From: Henckelia pumila
Taxonomy: Eukaryota > Streptophyta > Magnoliopsida > Lamiales > Gesneriaceae
Direction of reading: 5' to 3'
NCBI RefSeq assembly: GCF_033568475.1
Contig: NC_133120.1
Location: 82,374,151 to 82,438,150, forward strand
Length of the DNA stretch: 64,000 bases
Positions 3,101 through 23,441 of this stretch are shown here, piece by piece. The position numbers were made by a program, and so were the translations under genes. Under the pieces are notes generated by a model, which was not told the DNA's origin, made no database searches, and saw nothing but the letters and a program-made list of their open reading frames with translations. Within the stretch, counting starts at the first letter, position 1; each line of letters begins with the position of its first letter.

Positions 3101-3837
3101 TAAAGAGCAAACTCCTAAAACTGAATATGATATTAAATGCATGAAGAATGTGCCTTATTCTAATGTTATTGGTTCTGTCGTGTATTTAATGATTAGCAAA
3201 AGGCTTGATATTGCGTATTCCGTGAGTTGCTTGAGTCGTTATATGTCTAATCCCGGAGTTTACCATTGAGAAGCTCTCAAATATCTGCTGAGATATTTGA
3301 ATGGTTCTATGAATCATGGTTTAAAATTTTTCAGATCTGAAACTGGTGTTAAATTGGTTGGATATATGGATTCTAACTATGACAATGATAGAGACAATAC
3401 AAAATCAACAACTTCTTATGTGTTTACGTTGTGTGGTGCTTGTATTAGCTGGAAATCTCAATTACAACAAATTGTAGCCCTTTCAACCACCGAATTTGAG
3501 TATGTAGCTGTAACTGAAGCGTTAAAAGAAGTTATTTGGTTGAAAGGACTCATTTTTTAAATTGGTTTTCTTGAAGGTGAAGTTGTTGTATTTTCTGATA
3601 GTCAATCTGACATCCAATTATGTAAGAATCCTGTTTTTCATGATAGAACTAAACATATTGATGTTAGATTTCACTACATTCGTGATGTGGTTGCTAAATG
3701 TATTGTCTATCTTGAAAAGATTTCGTCTGAATTTAATCCTGCTGATATGGGAACTAAGTGTTTATCTGTTGAAAAATTTAGATCGTGTTTGAAAATTTTA
3801 AACTTTGATACTTCCGACTGATACTGACTTTGTGTTT

Positions 3838-13249: not shown

Positions 13250-14860
13250 AAAAAAAAAAGGCACTTCGGTTCTGAAAAAGATGCAGTAATAAAGGAGCAA
13301 GTGGACGAGCTACTCAGGGCTGGGCATATTGAAGAAATCCACTTCCCGACCTGGTTGTCTAACATAGTCTTAGTCCCGAAATCTACGGGAAAATGGCGTA
13401 TGTGTGTAGATTTTCTAGATTTGAATAAAGCATGCCCTAAAGATTGCTACCCCTTACCTAGAATAGACCAGCTTGTCGATTCCACTGCAGGGCATGAATT
13501 ACTTAGCTTTTTGGATGCTTACCAAGGATATCACCAAATTCCCTTGGCAAAAGAGGACAAAGACAATGTCAGTTTTGTCACATCAACAGGAACCTATTCC
13601 TATGTGGTCATGCCGTTTGGACTCAAAAACGCCGGGGCTACATACCAAAGGTTGATGGATAGAGTATTCGAGCAGCAAATTGGGAAAAATATCGAGGTCT
13701 ATGTAGATGATATCCTGGTCAAGACCAGTACTGCGGACCAGTTCATTACCGACCTAACTCAAACTTTTCAGACTTAAAAGCACTATCGGCTTAAGCTAAA
13801 CCCCAGCAAGTGTACTTTCGGAGTCCGAGCTGGAAAGTTTCTGGGTTATATGGTTACAAGAAGGGGAATCGAAGCTAATCCCGAAAAGGTCCAAGCCATC
13901 ATTACTATGAGCTCCCCCAAGAATATACAGGAAGTACAGAGATTAACAGGAAGAATTACAGCACTGGCCCGGTTTATAAGCAAATCAGCAGATAAAAGCC
14001 TCCCTTTCTTTAAGGCACTACGAAAAATGAAAAATTTCGAATGGGATGATGAAAGTGAGAAAGCTTTCCAGGACTTGAAAGCTTACTTACAGCAGTTGCC
14101 CGTGCTGAATAAGCCTATCCAAGGGAAAGAATTGTTCTTATATCTGGCGGTGACCAACCGAGCAGCCAGTTCAGTCCTAGTTAGGAAGGACGGAATAAAT
14201 CATCAGCCTGTGTACTTTGTGAGTCATGCCTTGAAGGGAGCTGAACTCAACTATTTAACGCAGGAAAAACTAGCCTTAGCTTTAGTTATCACTGCGAGAA
14301 AATTGCGTCCTTATTTTTTGTCACACCGCATCACGGTGCTCACCAACAGCGTTTTGGGAAAAATTGCAGCTAATCCAGATGCATCAGGGAGACTTATCAG
14401 ATGGATTACAGAATTGAGTGAGTATGACATCAAATTCGAGCCCCGGACAGCCATAAAAGCTCAAGCCCTAGCTGATTTCTTAGCGGAGACAGTACAACTA
14501 GAACAAGAAGAATTATGGAAGATTTTCGTAGATGGGTCATCATGTCAGTCCGGATGCGGAGCTGGAATTGTGATCATCTCGCCTTGGGGGGAAGAAACTA
14601 ATATTTCAATCAGGTTAGACTTCAAGGCCTCAAACAATGAAGCAGAATATGAGGCATTATTGCTTGGGATCAAAGCAGCACGAAACTTGGGCATCTCCCG
14701 AGCTAATCTGTATTTCGACTCCCAATTAGCAATCCAACAGAGCAACGGAAGATTTGAATGTAAAGATGAGAAGATGTTGAGATATATCAAAGCATTAGAC
14801 AAAGCCAAAGAAGGGTTCACTGAGTTGAACTTAGAGCTCATCCCCGGGCTGAAAATATGA
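13250..14860 (+). other. Reverse transcriptase and dual RNase H region of the Tat-type element (fossil)
   Basis: The gypsy reverse transcriptase shows KWRMCVDFLDLNKACPKD, PFGLKNAGATYQRLMD and the catalytic YVDDILVKT near 13700. It is followed by the connection/RNase H part (TQEKLALALV near 14260). A second RNase H-like domain, with IFVDGSSCQSGCGAG near 14520 and NNEAEYEALLLGI near 14635, is a hallmark of the Tat lineage. The region is broken. Confidence 0.88.
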
Positions 14861-15071
14861 AGGCAGACCACTTGGCCCGCTTAGCCAGTGCTCTGAGTAA
14901 CCGATCTGATCCCATTGTCGCAGGTCGGGAACTTGTTTCGCAACTAGAAACTCTGGATGAAATTATAGCTCAGGTACCGGAAGGAGACTGGCGATATGAT
15001 ATACACAAATATCTAATCAAGAAAGAATTACCGAGTGATAATAAGAAAGCAAAGGAAGTTAAGAGAAGGGC

Positions 15072-17942
15072 TGAAACGCCTAGTACTACTAATTGCGGAA
15101 AAACTTTTTTTTTTTATACTATATACATATACGCCCATACATATATGTATAAATATTAAAAATAATATTTCAAATAATAACTCGCTTAATAAAAATAATA
15201 AACAGTTATTTGATAAAATCTTGAGTCATGCAATAGATAAAATAATGTCTATAGTGAAAATTTATAACTTATGTCTACTAAAATCATGAAAAGTCAATAG
15301 TTAATCATAACCATTGAAAACATAAAAATATCCTGAATAAATAACTCATGCATAAATAAAATCCTAGCGAGACGGTCACGGGGCCACTGCCATGCTCGCT
15401 CATACGTCCTCGCCACCGGTAGGAGCTACATCATACTCACCTGCACCATATAAGCGTAGTGAGCCTAGAGGCTCAACATGTCTAATCCTTTATAACAAGG
15501 GTTAAAATAATGCATCACGTAAATACTAATACATATACATGTATATGAGCATGCATGGAAACATTTTTCATAACATAAATGCTGAATCATAAATCTTATA
15601 CATAACATAACTTTCTTCATCATACATAACATAATTGAGCATGTCATAAACATAAAAACTGTGTATGGTCATATCCATGAATGTGACTAATAACTGTGCC
15701 GACTGATCAGTCTAAAGAACCATCGTACGTGGCGGTGGATAAATCCACCTCTATGCTGGTAGTAAACTACTTCTGTGCCAGTGGTAAAACCACTTCTATG
15801 CCGGTAGTAGAACTACCTCTGTGTCAGTGGTAAAACCACTTCTATGCTGTCACATCACTTCAATTTCCATAAAATATTTTTCATGCTCAAATCTTAATCA
15901 TAAACACATCATAAAATATTTCATGTATGCAAGCACTTAAAATATGTCCGTAATATATATTTAATTAATTTTAATAATAAATATACTTTTACTTAAAATA
16001 GACTTCATGCATAAAAATAATTAAATATATATTCCGGACTTAGTTTATTTTCATGGATTGGTCCAGACTGCTGGTCTCTCTACTAAACCTCTTAACTGAC
16101 TTAAAGTCTGTTAACTAACTTAAAGCCATAATTAAATAAATAATTTTAAAAATTATAATTTTTACTAAAATAAAATACTTAAATGTTATTGGGCTTAAAT
16201 AAAAATATTTAGGCCCAATAACTAATTAATTCATAAAAATTCCTAGACTGACCCAATAAAATCACTGACTAGGCCAAAAATTCCGATGGGCCCACGGGCC
16301 CATAAAATTATTGGGTTAACTTAAAAATAATTTAAAAAGCCCAAATAAAATTATTTGGAGGCCCAAATAATTTTCTAACTAATTAAATGGCCCATAAACC
16401 AATTAAAACATTAAACATTTTAAAATTAAAATACTCGAGCCCGGCCCACCTAGCCCGGACCCGGACCTACCTGACCCGACCCTAGACCCTACTTACCCGA
16501 CCCACTACCCTGACCCGACCCTGAACCACCCAAAACCCCCCAACCCGATCCCCCCTCCTCTCGTTACCTTCGGCCGTGCGAGCAGCAGCTTCCCGGGGCT
16601 GCTGCCGCCGTGCTCCGGCCGTCCCCTGGCCGGAGCACCACCACCTAACCCTAGCCCTCTTCAAGACGTTTCCAACAAGCTAAAAACCAGCCCAAACCGA
16701 TCCCTAACGAAGGAGAACGAAGCAAAACCATCTATCCCTTAATCTGCTCGCGTCCTGCGAGCGACGCCGGACTTCCGACCGTTCGGCCGCCCAGCTCCGG
16801 CCACCACTGGCCGGAGCACAACTTGGATTACCTTCCCCTATGTCTTGTGGTTCTAACCCAACTGGAATCAGTCTAAAACACGCCTTATGGACCGAGAACG
16901 ACCCAATCTCCCAACATCGCTCAACCTGCGCACCCTAGGACCTGTTCTGAACCAGCTCCTCTCCTGGCCATGCATGGCTCGAACCAGGCAAGCCATTCAA
17001 TCCTAGGGACCCTAAGACATCACCCTAGACGTGGCCAGCATTCCATCAGTAGTCCATGTTAGAAGAAAAACGTGAGCATGTAGAGGTAGATGAGCATTCA
17101 TGCACAAATTTGATCTACGGGAAGAAATATCATGAGATACCAACAAAGCAACCTCAAACCATTAAAAATCTGACATAAACGATAATTAGCTTATATGGTG
17201 GCCAAGAAAAGGATTTAAACATGCCTTTGATTTTTAAAACGAAGCTAGACCGCGTGAACGATTCCGGGACGACGGGCGATGACGACAAGCCTTGAACCTT
17301 CAAAAACGAGCTATGGAGTTCTTCAAGGATTGCTAGGTGAAGAAGATGAATATGGAGGGGAATGGGTCGGCTAATGGTGAAGGGAGGCGTGTGTGTGTGG
17401 GGTTTAGGGTTAGACTTAGTCTAGGTTTTGATATTTAAGAAAATAGGGTAATTAATATATTATTAAGGATATTAAATATATAGATAAAATATAACTTAAC
17501 ACAAAACTCTAAAAGAAATATTTAAAAATCTGAAACATTAATAAAAATCCCGAAATTAAAATTAAGGGAATTTTTAAAAGTGATTAAAAGTCATTATCTT
17601 GGCTAATTTTGGATAAAAAGGACTCCTAAAATTATATAAAATCAAATACTAAAACTTTTGAGATAATAAAACTCAAAATAATATTTTAGGGCTCTAAAAA
17701 GGCTCATAAAATCATTTGGGTGGAAAGTTGTCATCTCGTCCGTCCACGTTCCCGTCTACGCGATCAAATATTTAAAATACTAAAAATCATAAAATCACTA
17801 ATTATGGGTTAAATGCTTAAATAAATTAAATCATGCATATAAATCACATAATAACACATAAATTCATTTAACCCTTATTTTTAAAATTAATTTCTCCTAA
17901 TTATGCATGCGGATTTACGTATTAAAATTTCTGGGTGTTACA
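15072..17942 (-). repeat. 3' LTR of the gag-only element
   Basis: On the plus strand it starts TGAAACGCCTAGTACTAC and ends CTGGGTGTTACA. It contains a five-unit hairpin array (15734-15848), GC-rich inverted repeats near 16600-16650 and 16790-16820, and AT-rich ends. Short open frames of 60-63 codons inside it show no motif. Confidence 0.95.
15734..15848. repeat. Five-unit hairpin array in the 3' LTR
   Basis: Five consecutive units of 22-24 bp each contain a short inverted repeat with an A-rich loop, then a spacer of the type TCTATGCC. Stems read GGTGGA/TCCACC, GTAGT/ACTAC, AGTGGT/ACCACT, GGTAGT/ACTACC and AGTGGT/ACCACT. Where the left arm changes, the right arm changes to match, so pairing is kept. 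Confidence 0.8.
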
Positions 17943-17946
17943 ATTC

Positions 17947-17947
<1 letters not shown>

Positions 17948-17983
<36 letters not shown>
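17948..17983 (-). repeat. Polypurine tract (G36) next to the 3' LTR
   Basis: Thirty-six C on the plus strand, read as G36 on the element's sense strand, end 5 bp from the 3' LTR. That position is where the plus-strand primer of reverse transcription lies. The exact length of such a homopolymer may be a sequencing artefact. Confidence 0.7.
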
Positions 17984-18174
17984 TTAAATTGAATTTCGTC
18001 CTCGAAATTCGACGGATCAAATTCTAATAACGGAGTTCTTCAAAATCCAATTCACTAAACTCATTATCACATATCTAGTTCCTAAGTTTCGGTATCCCAA
18101 AAGTAATGCTTCTGCTGCGCACTCTGATAAACAAAATATTTTTAACTTCACCAAAGTTCCCTTAAAAGACTAGG

Positions 18175-19233
18175 TTAGGGCATACCGGAGATCAAAGAGG
18201 TGTTTGGGTCTGCCCCAGCTGCTTGCATGACAAACACCCTCCCTGTGGTGTTCTTCTTCCGTGGACAATTTATGGACATGTGCCCCGGCTCCTTGCAATG
18301 GAAACACACATTCGACCCACTCAGGCACAGACCCGAATGTGGTTTCTGACACTTCGGGCAAAGTGGTACTCCTCCTGACTTAGGGGCCCCGCCCCTCTGT
18401 TGCTGCTGCTGCTGACCCTGCTGACTCTGCTGGTTAAGGTCCTTAGATGGCCCTGTGTACTGTTTCTTCGTAGGTGGCTGCGAAGATGGTTGATAAGATT
18501 CCAGCTGGAGCTGTCTCTTACGCTGCTGTTCCTTCTGTATATCTCTTCTCCCCTCCTCAGAGCGCAATGCTCTACTAACTGCAGCCTCATAAGTAGCGAC
18601 ATCCAACATGCGGACGTCATGCTTAATGTCAGCCCGTAACCCATCAACAAACTGTCTCAATTTATCCGGTGCACTGTCAGCAATAAGGGATACAAAGCGA
18701 CACCCTCTCTCGAACTGTGTGATATACTCCACCACAGACTTGTCCCCCTGGCTGAGACTCATGAACTCCCGGATCATGCGGCTACGCACATCCTCAGTAA
18801 AATACTTGGCAAAGAACATACGTCTGAACTCTATCCACGTCAAAGTAGGTAGGTTCACGCCCCTAACAGCGCCTTCCCACCAAGAGGCTGCATCCCTTCT
18901 CATCATATACACCGCACACTTGACCCTATCAGCGTCTGTAATCCCCATGTAGTCAAAGATAGACTCCAATGATCGAATCCACCCCTCAGCAATGAGCGGA
19001 TCAGTGGTGCCTGTAAACTCCTTTGGTCCCTTCTTCTGGAACCGCTCAGCCACATCCTCATCATGTGAAAGCCTCGGACGTGCCGCCTGCTGCTCCAACA
19101 GAGCAGTAATCCCAGCCATCATATTCGCATTGGCCTGCTCCAATGCTGAAAGAGGATTCTGCGGAGGGGGAGGTGGAGGTGGAGGTCTTCCGCGTCTATT
19201 CATCTGTCTGGGAGGCATTCTGTACCACCACAT
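18175..19233 (-). CDS. Gag protein of the gag-only element (looks whole)
   Basis: A 352-residue open frame encodes a Ty3/gypsy-type Gag. The N-terminus is Pro-rich (RGRPPPPPPPPQNPL). The retrotransposon gag domain (about 65-210) carries FTGTTDPLIAEGWI, ASWWEGAVRG and FAKYFTEDVRSRMIREF. A Gln-rich basic stretch follows (about 240-285), then a CCHC zinc knuckle CFHCKEPGHMSINC near residue 315. It would form the particle that packages element RNA. No pol follows before the G36 tract and LTR, so the protein ends with gag. Start choice: the first Met lies about 190 bp inside the 5' LTR; the second (MPPRQMNRRG) would also serve. Confidence 0.9.
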   Translation of the reverse strand: MWWYRMPPRQMNRRGRPPPPPPPPQNPLSALEQANANMMAGITALLEQQAARPRLSHDEDVAERFQKKGPKEFTGTTDPLIAEGWIRSLESIFDYMGITDADRVKCAVYMMRRDAASWWEGAVRGVNLPTLTWIEFRRMFFAKYFTEDVRSRMIREFMSLSQGDKSVVEYITQFERGCRFVSLIADSAPDKLRQFVDGLRADIKHDVRMLDVATYEAAVSRALRSEEGRRDIQKEQQRKRQLQLESYQPSSQPPTKKQYTGPSKDLNQQSQQGQQQQQQRGGAPKSGGVPLCPKCQKPHSGLCLSGSNVCFHCKEPGHMSINCPRKKNTTGRVFVMQAAGADPNTSLISGMP

Positions 19234-19423
19234 ATTTCTTTACGTAAATCGCAATGCATAACTAAGGGTTTCTAAAGTCTTACTGAACATGAAATACTTA
19301 AAATTAATACATATGCTCCTTCTAAATTTTATTAAAACATTTAAAACTTACAGACCAGTAGCAGGATTTCTGAGCTTCACGTGGCAGATGGACACCCTCC
19401 GAGGACCGTGCTCTGATACCAAT

Positions 19424-22294
19424 TGAAACGCCTAGTACTACTAATTGCGGAAAAACTTTTTTTTTTATACTATATACATATACGCCCATACATATATGTA
19501 TAAATATTAAAAATAATATTTCAAATAATAACTCGCTTAATAAAAATAATAAACAGTTATTTGATAAAATCTTGAGTCATGCAATAGATAAAATAATGTC
19601 TATAGTGAAAATTTATAACTTATGTCTACTAAAATCATGAAAAGTCAATAGTTAATCATAACCATTGAAAACATAAAAATATCCTGAATAAATAACTCAT
19701 GCATAAATAAAATCCTAGCGAGACGGTCACGGGGCCACTGCCATGCTCGCTCATACGTCCTCGCCACCGGTAGGAGCTACATCATACTCACCTGCACCAT
19801 ATAAGCGTAGTGAGCCTAGAGGCTCAACATGTCTAATCCTTTATAACAAGGGTTAAAATAATGCATCACGTAAATACTAATACATATACATGTATATGAG
19901 CATGCATGGAAACATTTTTCATAACATAAATGCTGAATCATAAATCTTATACATAACATAACTTTCTTCATCATACATAACATAATTGAGCATGTCATAA
20001 ACATAAAAACTGTGTATGATCATATCCATGAATGTGACTAATAACTGTGCCGACTGATCAGTCTAAAGAACCATCGTATGTGGCGGTGGATAAATCCACC
20101 TCTATGCTGGTAGTAAACTACCTCTGTGCCAGTGGTAAAACCACTTCTATGCCGGTAGTAGAACTACCTCTGTGTCAGTGGTAAAACCACTTCTATGCTG
20201 TCACATCACTTCAATTTCCATAAAATATTTTTCATGCTCAAATCTTAATCATAAACACATCATAAAATATTTCATGTATGCATGCACTTAAAATATGTTC
20301 GTAATATATATTTAATTAATTTTAATAATAAATATACTTTTACTTAAAATAGACTTCATGCATAAAAATAATTAAATATATATTCCGGACTTAGTTTATT
20401 TTCATGGATTGGTCCAGACTGCTGGTTTCTCTACTAAACCTCTTAACTGACTTAAAGCCTGTTAACTAACTTAAAGCCCATAATTAAATAAATAACTTTA
20501 AAAATTATAATTTTTACTAAAATAAAATACTTAAATGTTATTGGGCTTAAATAAAAATATTTAGGCTCAATAACTAATTAATTCATAAAAATTCCTAGAC
20601 TGACCCAATAAAATCACTGACTAGGCCAAAAATTCGGATGGGCCCACGAGCCCATAAAATTATTGGGTTAACTTAAAAATAATTTAAAAAGCCCAAATAA
20701 AATTATTTGGAGGCCCAAATAATTTTCTAACTAATTAAATGGCCCATAAACCAATTAAAACATTAAACATTTTAAAATTAAAATACTCGAGCCCGGCCCA
20801 CCTAGCCCGGACCCGGACCTACCTGACCCGATCCTAGACCCTACTGACCCGACCCACTACCCTGACCCGACCCTGAACCACCCAGAACCCCCCAACCCGA
20901 TCCCCCCTCCTCTCATTACCTTTGGCCGTGCGAGCAGCAGCTTCCCGGGGCTGCTGCCGCCGTGCTCCGGCCGTCCCCTGGCCGGAGCACCACCACCTAC
21001 CCCTAGCCCTCTTCAATATGTTTCCAACAAGCTAAAAACCAGCCCAAACCGATCCCTAACGAAGGAGAACGAAGCAAAACCATCTATCCCTTAATCTGCT
21101 CGCGTCCTGCGCGCGACGCCGGACTTCCGACCGTTCGGCCGCCCAGCTCCGGCCACCACTGGCCGGAGCACAACTTGGATTACCTTCCCCTATGTCTTGT
21201 GGTTCTAACCCAACTGGAATCAGTCTAAAACACGCCTTATGGACCGAGAACGACCCAATCTCCCAACATCGCTCAACCTGCGCACCCTAGGACCTGTTCT
21301 GAACCAGCTCCTCTCTAGGCCATGCATGGCTCGAACCAGGCAAGCCATTCAATCCTAGGGACCCTAAGACATCACCCTAGACGTGGCCAGCAGTCCATCA
21401 GTAGTCCATGTTAGAAGAAAAACGTGAGCATGTAGAGGTAGATGAGCATTCATGCACAAATTTGATCTACGAGAAGAAATATCATGAGATACCAACAAAG
21501 CAACCTCAAACCATTAAAAATCTGACATAAACGATAATTAGCTTATATGGTGGCCAAGAAAAGTATTTAAACATGCCTTTGATTTTTAAAACGAAGCTAG
21601 ACCGCGTGAACGACTCCGGAACGACGGGCGATGACGACAAGCCTTGAACCTTCAAAAACGAGCTATGGAGTTCTTCAAGGATTGCTAGGTGAAGAAGATG
21701 AATATGGAGGGGAATGGGTCGGCTAATGGTGAAGGGAGGCGTGTGTGTGTGGGGTTTAGGGTTAGACTTAGTCTAGGTTTTGATATTTAAGAAAATAGGG
21801 TAATTAATATATTATTAAGGATATTAAATATATAGATAAAATATAACTTAACACAAAACTCTAAAAGAAATATTTAAAAATCTGAAACATTAATAAAAAT
21901 TCCGAAATTAAAATTAAGGGAATTTTTAAAAGTGATTAAAAGTCATTATCTTGGCTAATTTTGGATAAAAAGGACTCCTAAAATTATATAAAATCAAATA
22001 CTAAAACTTTTGAGATAATAAAACTCAAAATAATATTTTAGGGCTCTAAAAAGGCTCATAAAATCATTTGGGTGGAAAGTTCTCATCTTGTCCGTCCACG
22101 GTCCCGTCTACGCGATCAAATATTTAAAATACTAAAAATCATAAAATCACTAATTATGGGTTAAATGCTTAAATAAATTAAATCATGCATATAAATCACA
22201 TAATAACACATAAATTCATTTAACCCTTATTTTTAAAATTAATTTCTCCTAATTATGCATGCGAATTTACGTATTAAAATTTCTGGGTGTTACA
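19424..22294 (-). repeat. 5' LTR of the gag-only element
   Basis: Same length (2871 bp) and ends as the copy at 15072-17942. The hairpin array recurs at about 20086-20200. Immediately to its left is the initiator-tRNA primer site TGGTATCAGAGC (minus strand), which fixes the orientation. Confidence 0.95.
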
Positions 22295-23441
22295 AGGGCT
22301 CTCCGTTTTGTCGTGATCGATCAAATTTTGTTTAAACGATCTTTCTCTCAGCCTTTGTTAAAATGTTTGGGTCCTGATGAGGCCAATTATGTCTTACGAG
22401 AAATTCATGAAGGGTCTTGTGGTAGTCACCTGGGCAGTCTGGCCCTAGCTTGAAAAGCACTTTTGGCAGGATTTTTCTGGCCAACCATGCGGAAAGACTC
22501 GGCAGATCTGGTTAATTCTTGTTATAATTGCCAGAGACATGCTAACCTACAATGGAGGCCTGCAGAATACATGAAGGTAGTGGTGGCTGCTTGTCCTTTC
22601 GATCAATGGGGAATGGATATTGTGGGGTCATTCCCTGTTAGCACAGGACAAAGAAAATTTTTGTTGGTCGCAGTCGATTATTTTTCTAAATGGGTTGAAG
22701 CCGAGCCCTTAGCCAAAATTACAGAAAATGAAGTGCTCAATTTTCTATGGAAAAATATAGTGTGCCGCTTCGGAATCCCTCTCAGGTTGGCATCAGATAA
22801 TGGGAGACAGTTCTGTGGATCCAAAGTTCGGGTATGGTGCCAGGAAATGAAGATCGAACAAGTTTTCACCTCTGTAACATACCCTCAAGGGAATGGACAA
22901 GTCGAAGTTACCAACAGAACGATAGTCCAATCCCTTAAGACACGATTGGATGCAGCCAAGGGCAAGTGGGCAGACGAGCTCCCTTCAGTATTGTGGTCTT
23001 ACCGAACTACAACTCGATCCAGTACGGGTGAAACCCCTTTCAGCATGGTATATGGGACTGAAGCTGTCCTCCCAGCAGAGATCGGACAAGAGAGTGCCAG
23101 GATCATGGCATACGGCCCAAAAAATCAAGAACTGCGAGCAATGGATTTGGACTTACTTGAGGAGCACAGTTTCCCGATCTGCAATTAGGCTCGCAGCCTA
23201 TCGCAAACGAATGACCCAGGCCTATAACAAAAGAGTATACCCTAAGGTTTTCCAGGAGGGAGATCTGGTTATGCGAAAGATACAACATCCAGGAGAAAGA
23301 GGAAAGCTAGAGGCCAAGTATGAAGGCCCATTCAAGGTGATAGGAAAAGCTGGCATAGCTGCATATTACTTGGAAGATGCCCAAGGCAAGAGGGGTAAAA
23401 GGCCATGGAATGCTCAACACTTGAAAAAATACTATCCCTAA
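22295..23441 (+). other. Integrase region of the Tat-type element, right of the nested insertion (fossil)
   Basis: This continues the gypsy integrase: zinc-binding end (YNCQRH near 22520), catalytic core with GMDIVGSFPVSTGQ near 22610, VDYFSKWVEAEP near 22670 and DNGRQF near 22800, then TYPQGNGQVEVTNR near 22880. The C-terminal part ends in KRPWNAQHLKKYYP just before 23441, as in many plant gypsy Pol proteins. Broken. Confidence 0.85.

Follow-up and report, generated by a model that had tools for sequence, protein, structure and literature searches.

A family of gag-only LTR retrotransposons in Henckelia pumila and an apparent capsid replacement in one of its subfamilies

The window analysed in this study is a stretch of 64,000 nt from the plant Henckelia pumila (NCBI RefSeq assembly GCF_033568475.1, contig NC_133120.1, positions 82,374,151 to 82,438,150). 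It harbors a retrotransposon with two long terminal repeats (LTRs) and gag as its only gene, which an original prediction made from the sequence alone had described as recently moved and as unusual in combining a lone gag with very large LTRs. The element and its parts are listed below in window coordinates (UTR, untranslated region; aa, amino acids).

15072-22294, minus strand: gag-only LTR element, 7,223 bp (LTR alignment, frame and domain searches)
15067-15071, no strand: target-site duplication, copy 1, AGGGC (flank comparison)
15072-17942, minus strand: 3′ LTR, 2,871 bp, TG...CA on the minus strand (LTR alignment)
17948-17983, minus strand: expanded polypurine tract, a run of 36 G (sequence)
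17984-18174, minus strand: 3′ UTR of the gag-only family (sequence)
18081-18117, minus strand: family tag of 37 bases inside the 3′ UTR (genome-wide tag search)
18175-19233, minus strand: gag, 352 aa, intact (open frame and Pfam)
18184-18185, minus strand: GT matching the 5′ end of an intron-like stretch of pol-bearing relatives, with the gag stop just after it
18262-18312, minus strand: CCHC zinc knuckle of the nucleocapsid, aa 308-324 (Pfam)
18538-19170, minus strand: capsid-coding block, aa 22-232 (Pfam and window-by-window comparison)
19234-19409, minus strand: 5′ UTR (sequence)
19410-19421, minus strand: primer-binding site TGGTATCAGAGC (pattern match)
19424-22294, minus strand: 5′ LTR, 2,871 bp (LTR alignment)
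22295-22299, no strand: target-site duplication, copy 2, AGGGC (flank comparison)

Re-measurement confirmed this structure as originally described, namely both LTRs, a 5-bp target-site duplication, a primer site, a purine tract and an intact gag without an enzyme gene, as well as the estimate that four fifths of the element is LTR (79.5% of its length). The gag product matches the Pfam models Retrotrans_gag (5.3e-14), Ty3_capsid (4.3e-8, aa 65-224) and zf-CCHC (7.6e-5). Pol is absent from the element, including the 191 bases between gag and the G tract. The primer site is putatively of the tRNA-Met type. Priming by tRNA-Met agrees with what is stated, in part of PMC6317226, to be typical of most chromoviruses. 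The two LTRs are 98.8% identical, with 32 substitutions over 2,870 aligned sites and a Kimura two-parameter (K2P) distance of 0.0112, which bears out the earlier by-eye estimate of about 1.2% and the recent move. With substitution rates taken from other plants, the insertion dates to 0.43 million years (1.3e-8 per site and year) or 0.86 million years (6.5e-9). Five further copies show LTR distances of K2P 0.0023-0.0046 over about 1,300 bp of LTR.

The element was then placed in its genome of 885 Mb, which includes four contigs (C1-C4) of 183-234 Mb. From 30,453 gag candidates the best 115 were scored and cross-matched with the best 132 protease-reverse transcriptase (RT), 117 integrase and 40 UTR matches and with 100 of the places matched by the family tag. 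Among the matches listed, 67 of the first 84 gag matches carry direct evidence of the gag-only form (the tag in 55 of them, a 3′-UTR match or a junction that was read) and none of the 84 has a protease or integrase match. The last 31 show the reverse pattern among the matches listed: 23 have a protease or integrase match, 22 with the protease 174-189 nt downstream of gag, and none has the family tag or the gag-only 3′ UTR. Thirty gag loci including the window copy were read with 1.5-kb flanks. All 30 share a common gag-to-LTR junction, in which a UTR of about 180-200 nt separates gag from the polypurine tract and the LTR starts next, and 24 show the exact primer-site pattern upstream of gag. 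With up to three mismatches allowed, the 37-base tag occurs at 182 places genome-wide, and its reversed control at none. The shared junction, the tag counts and the split of the matches thus indicate a family with many tens of copies, and probably with about two hundred.

The distinct gag-only family proposed originally therefore stands, and the finding named at that time as decisive against it, that most members carry pol, was sought genome-wide and did not occur. A simple deletion within an autonomous element, confined to this one locus, would also fit the existence of pol-bearing relatives whose LTRs are related and whose primer site is the same. Such a deletion is highly improbable and was rejected, because the junction is common to many separate insertions, as the 30 loci and the tag places show; moreover, the pol-bearing gags among the best 115 matches differ by 13-16% in protein.

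Among the pol-bearing relatives, L069 is the only one with an LTR pair measurable as a whole. Its LTRs of about 2,644 bp (99.1% identical) enclose gag, protease and partial RT and integrase regions. Models of aspartyl protease, RT and chromodomain match pieces of L069 and of a second relative, L070; one piece of L069 matches Pfam Chromo at 2.1e-6, by which the lineage qualifies as a Ty3 chromovirus, the window element itself having no integrase. By sequence resemblance, this chromodomain Ty3 lineage is probably Tekay/Del. A third relative, L071, has an open frame of 1,180 aa holding pol and part of the preceding spacer, and the matches listed also include copies in which gag is open and pol forms a long open frame. 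The original prediction had advised looking for a full-length relative with the same LTR and primer site. The primer site is indeed common to L069, L070 and the gag-only family, and the LTRs contain alignable blocks that are 79-84% alike. In addition, a polypurine region of 33 bases is 97-100% identical between L069, L071 and the gag-only family. Relatives of the L069, L070 and L071 type are plausible enzyme donors.

L070 has the same break in the RT frame as L069, so the two share a deletion. This common deletion runs from RT into integrase, and the pair possibly represents a second non-autonomous family with gag, protease and partial pol.

A subfamily of the gag-only elements, termed A, differs from the window copy in the capsid-coding part of gag. 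L035, which belongs to A, agrees with the window copy at 97-99% as far as element position 3107 or so and at 96-99% from about 3762 onwards. Between these limits the identity is only 71-91%, whereas the same block is 96-99% identical to L079, a pol-bearing relative in which the protease was read and an integrase match lies 2.9 kb downstream of the capsid piece. Informative sites of L035 side with L079 in 112 of 120 cases within the block and in 2 of 77 and 4 of 112 in the flanks, a pattern reached by none of 10,000 shuffles. L033 and L034, the other two A copies read, give near-identical site counts. The swapped block spans aa 22-232 of gag; the Ty3_capsid match falls inside it and the zinc knuckle outside. 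The nucleocapsid and the UTRs of subfamily A remain of the gag-only type; between gag-only copies and helpers the nucleocapsid part is 57-83% alike in DNA, window by window. The capsid block of the window copy is of the non-helper type.

The A-type capsid piece was 97-100% identical in all 150 scored matches (the best 150 of 29,389 candidates). The first 20 of these and 7 others are gag-only loci; the remaining 123 are not, and 3 of them have an integrase match 2.4-2.9 kb downstream among the matches listed. The helper families fam2 (L079) and fam3 (L087) are 93-95% identical in the LTR end and UTR, and their capsid parts agree at 83-97%. Judged by this agreement, the capsid seems to be native to the helpers, with the gag-only element as receiver, a direction that is based on two helpers. 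Three A-type copies show K2P values of 0.0023-0.0046. Judged by these comparisons, subfamily A is a young subfamily carrying the capsid of a helper, and the swap may have been advantageous to it.

The mosaic may also be real and nevertheless a product of chance, by template switch or gene conversion, without adaptive meaning. A single event would account for the data, its limits being identical in the three copies read; any recombinant can spread by chance hitch-hiking, and two copies of B1 are of similarly young age. Two observations are less easily attributed to chance. The limits of the block enclose the capsid domain, and stops inside gag are rarer in A-type matches (2 of 24) than in the other 60 gag-only matches (35), although this contrast is biased towards well-kept A copies, since the A type was assigned from the best 150 capsid matches, and it would become 11 of 35 versus 26 of 49 if the 11 unassigned matches of 90% identity or less were also A. 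We regard a chance origin as possible, if somewhat short of probable.

Selection on gag was assessed by the ratio of non-synonymous to synonymous substitution rates (dN/dS) in 18 intact copies, 16 of them gag-only, with conclusions restricted to six comparisons within lineage B (B1, B2 and B3). For the capsid part the ratio is 0.03-0.15, and for the nucleocapsid part it is 0.24-0.42. The whole-gag ratio of A versus B (0.11-0.14) was set aside as a proof of selection because the capsid block of A is recombinant. The data favour, without proving it, a gag under constraint, with Gag being needed while pol was already gone.

On this basis we consider it likely that the window element belongs to an established non-autonomous gag-only family that keeps Gag because it is useful and obtains its enzymes from pol-bearing relatives. 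The large LTR would drive transcription of the element, with Gag as the sole translation product of the RNA. This Gag would co-assemble with Gag and Gag-Pol of those relatives that share the primer site, the polypurine region and LTR blocks with the element, and their enzymes would reverse-transcribe and integrate it. Since the copy moved recently and carries no pol, mobilisation in trans is the natural reading, as the original prediction had argued when it assigned the enzymes to another element. Most likely, the nucleocapsid half would package the element's own RNA and the capsid half would join the particle of the helper; in subfamily A, the capsid half would have been renewed by recombination with a helper family.

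A number of points weigh against this reading. Transcription, co-assembly, mobilisation in trans and the reason for the capsid swap are steps that we infer. The dN/dS values come from only 18 intact copies, and the nucleocapsid intervals are wide, with upper ends of 0.48-0.93 in five comparisons and 1.53 in the sixth. Direct evidence for either form is lacking in 17 of the 84 gag matches (and in 8 of the last 31) among the matches listed, and the gag of L071, which was read furthest among the pol-bearing copies, contains a stop. Stops also interrupt gag in 37 of the 84 gag-only matches, 47 being free of them, and even if the gag-only state imposed no selection, gag could stay readable through recombination with helpers. 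Furthermore, the gag-less copy L007 with L085 (G000:C4:197040792-197045700) has LTRs of about 2,861 bp and an internal part of about 281 bp, in which the 5′ UTR, the polypurine region and some 40 bp of gag are left. Over 269 bp the LTR ends of this copy agree at 98.9%, and a gag-less copy can thus move without a gag of its own. Four LTR pairs at a spacing of 2.98-3.15 kb were seen in the LTR search, of which L007/L085 is the one that was read.

The recent move of L007/L085, the stops and the recombinational replacement of the capsid block would all suit a different explanation, in which only the cis signals matter and gag is a passive relic, open through youth or recombination patching, with all proteins supplied by helpers. 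The low capsid ratios argue against it, and so do the nucleocapsid ratios, whose intervals stay below 1 in five of six comparisons in a part of gag that is far from identical to that of the helpers. We consider a passive gag unlikely.

Pol-bearing relatives also have an intron-like stretch where gag borders on protease. In L069, L070, L071, L078 and L079, a stretch of 194-204 nt with 41-47% T, starting with GTA and ending with CAG, extends from the last gag codons to the protease, and the two frames would meet without it. L074 (G000:C3:187132600-187133200) lacks exactly this GT..AG stretch, and on its two sides it is identical to L078 at 129 of 130 and 187 of 191 positions and to L079 at 128 of 130 and 260 of 263. 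L074 therefore looks as expected for a copy of a reverse-transcribed spliced RNA. L072, L073, L075 and L076, from another family, are also without the stretch. In L074 and these four copies the capsid match lies within a single open frame of 1,251-1,486 aa. Gag-only copies retain the GT and the first bases of the stretch, and their gag stop lies inside it. For fam3, L077/L086 were examined, in which the gag/protease junction was not in view. Read-through of a stop codon was rejected as a general gag-pol rule because the gap from gag to protease takes all three residues modulo 3 (0, 1 and 2 in 4, 6 and 12 of 22 cases).

Titles and abstract starts from a literature search contained no intron at this boundary in Tekay, which is no proof of absence. 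Plant LTR elements with introns are, according to the cited parts of the respective papers, Ogre and EVADE (PMC12786077), BARE-1 (PMC3735527) and Tyran and Varan of sunflower (PMC7730604), and Bianca and Ogre are groups with two separated frames (PMC6317226). In Ogre, a Tat element, an intron removed from part of the transcripts joins the frames (PMC6317226, in part). Ogre differs in being a non-chromovirus with the intron after the protease, while the putative intron described here precedes the protease in a chromovirus and is known from DNA alone. Should transcripts bear this intron out, a chromovirus would join the small number of plant LTR elements for which these sources report introns.

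Taken together, the capsid mosaic and the intron allow a joint reading, which we offer tentatively and with less than even confidence. In this chromovirus lineage, gag-only parasites would retain their own half of Gag for RNA binding and, by recombination in shared particles, exchange the capsid half for the one used by the currently active autonomous family, after which the capsid-matched subfamily would expand. Autonomous families would set Gag against Gag-Pol by keeping or splicing the gag/protease intron, and the gag-only form would descend from the unspliced, Gag-only reading after loss of pol. The capsid swap hints at how gag-only parasites could stay matched to their helpers. TR-GAG elements have been counted in plant genomes, and the cited parts of the literature give no settled reason for their retention of gag. 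A gag-only family whose gag shows low dN/dS, a capsid block derived from a pol-bearing family and a gag-less sibling that moved as well make up three natural tiers within one genome, on which capsid matching, packaging and mobilisation in trans can be tested.

Among known systems, the element is like TR-GAG in having two LTRs with a target-site duplication, a primer site, a polypurine tract, a single gag frame without pol domains and multiple copies of the same structure. The first description of TR-GAG (Chaparro et al. 2015) reportedly set a total length under 4 kb, which the window element, with 7.2 kb and mostly LTR, exceeds. A later rule uses domain content only (PMC6022998, in the passage cited), and the length quartiles of TR-GAG in PlantLTRdb are 3,608, 4,837 and 8,054 bp (PMC10025401, in part), a range that includes the element. 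TR-GAG is also used as a class in part of PMC8704663, with a new TR-GAG insertion in the Arabidopsis ddm1 mutant. The earlier emphasis on size as a distinguishing feature did not hold: the total length is usual for TR-GAG by these quartiles, and the length of the LTRs seems to be a trait of the lineage, since the pol-bearing L069 has LTRs of similar length. Giant LTRs were accordingly rejected as a novelty. The original observation is confirmed and its interpretation partly supported; large LTRs combined with gag are a weak novelty, and the interest lies in the capsid mosaic and the intron. Unlike TR-GAG as described in the cited passages, which do not mention one, the family here has a capsid-swapped subfamily.

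Enzyme-less chromovirus derivatives that inserted recently and are kin to autonomous partners, as here, are described in the cited parts of papers on noaCRM of hop (PMC12371157), the CRC TR-GAG of Coffea (PMC5818461) and noaCR5 of sorghum (PMC4079200). These differ in belonging to the CRM clade, and the parts cited do not mention a capsid-only replacement, although mosaic recombination including gag regions is known in centromeric chromoviruses (PMC4079200, in part). For a gag-only element, no report of a capsid-only replacement was found in titles, abstract starts and passages of the cited papers. The element resembles LARD in being an LTR element that is non-autonomous and large (at least 2,000 bp in the passage cited from PMC6022998), but LARD has no coding domain and the window element has an intact gag; the gag-less L007/L085 would fit LARD by that rule. 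In barley, according to part of PMC3735527, the non-autonomous BARE-2 likewise uses the products of a partner, BARE-1, in which splicing sets Gag against Pol. BARE-2 differs as a Copia element unable to make Gag, the reverse of a gag-only family. A partnership of autonomous and non-autonomous elements renewed by recombination is also indicated by the title of Du et al. 2010 for soybean, where LTRs are swapped and not, as here, the capsid-coding block.

Further observations concern individual copies. The 36-G polypurine tract is an expansion private to the window copy among the 30 copies read, most of which have 6-8 G (mostly 7) and two others 13 and 14; the window copy is ordinary for its family. 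Three gag matches (G000:C1:141518878-141528229) and three tag matches (C2:14979151-14987436) follow each other in steps of about 4.12-4.16 kb. This is close to the combined length of an LTR and an internal part, which points to tandem arrays with shared LTRs. The window LTR is hardly alignable with 13 gag-only copies at about 440-1300 from its 5′ end (41-71% in windows), and L004 and L007 match parts of this stretch at 92-96%, so the LTRs of the family are mosaic too.

The window copy interrupts another Ty3 element, with RNaseH domains and the integrase core on opposite sides of the insertion. When the flanks are joined at one copy of the target-site duplication, the frame of this host element is open across the junction and for about 50 further codons. 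We take the host to be of the Tat lineage. Its pieces at 13850-14860 and 22463-23188 contain more than one RNaseH-type domain and the integrase core, features that agree with the description of Tat in the cited part of PMC6317226.

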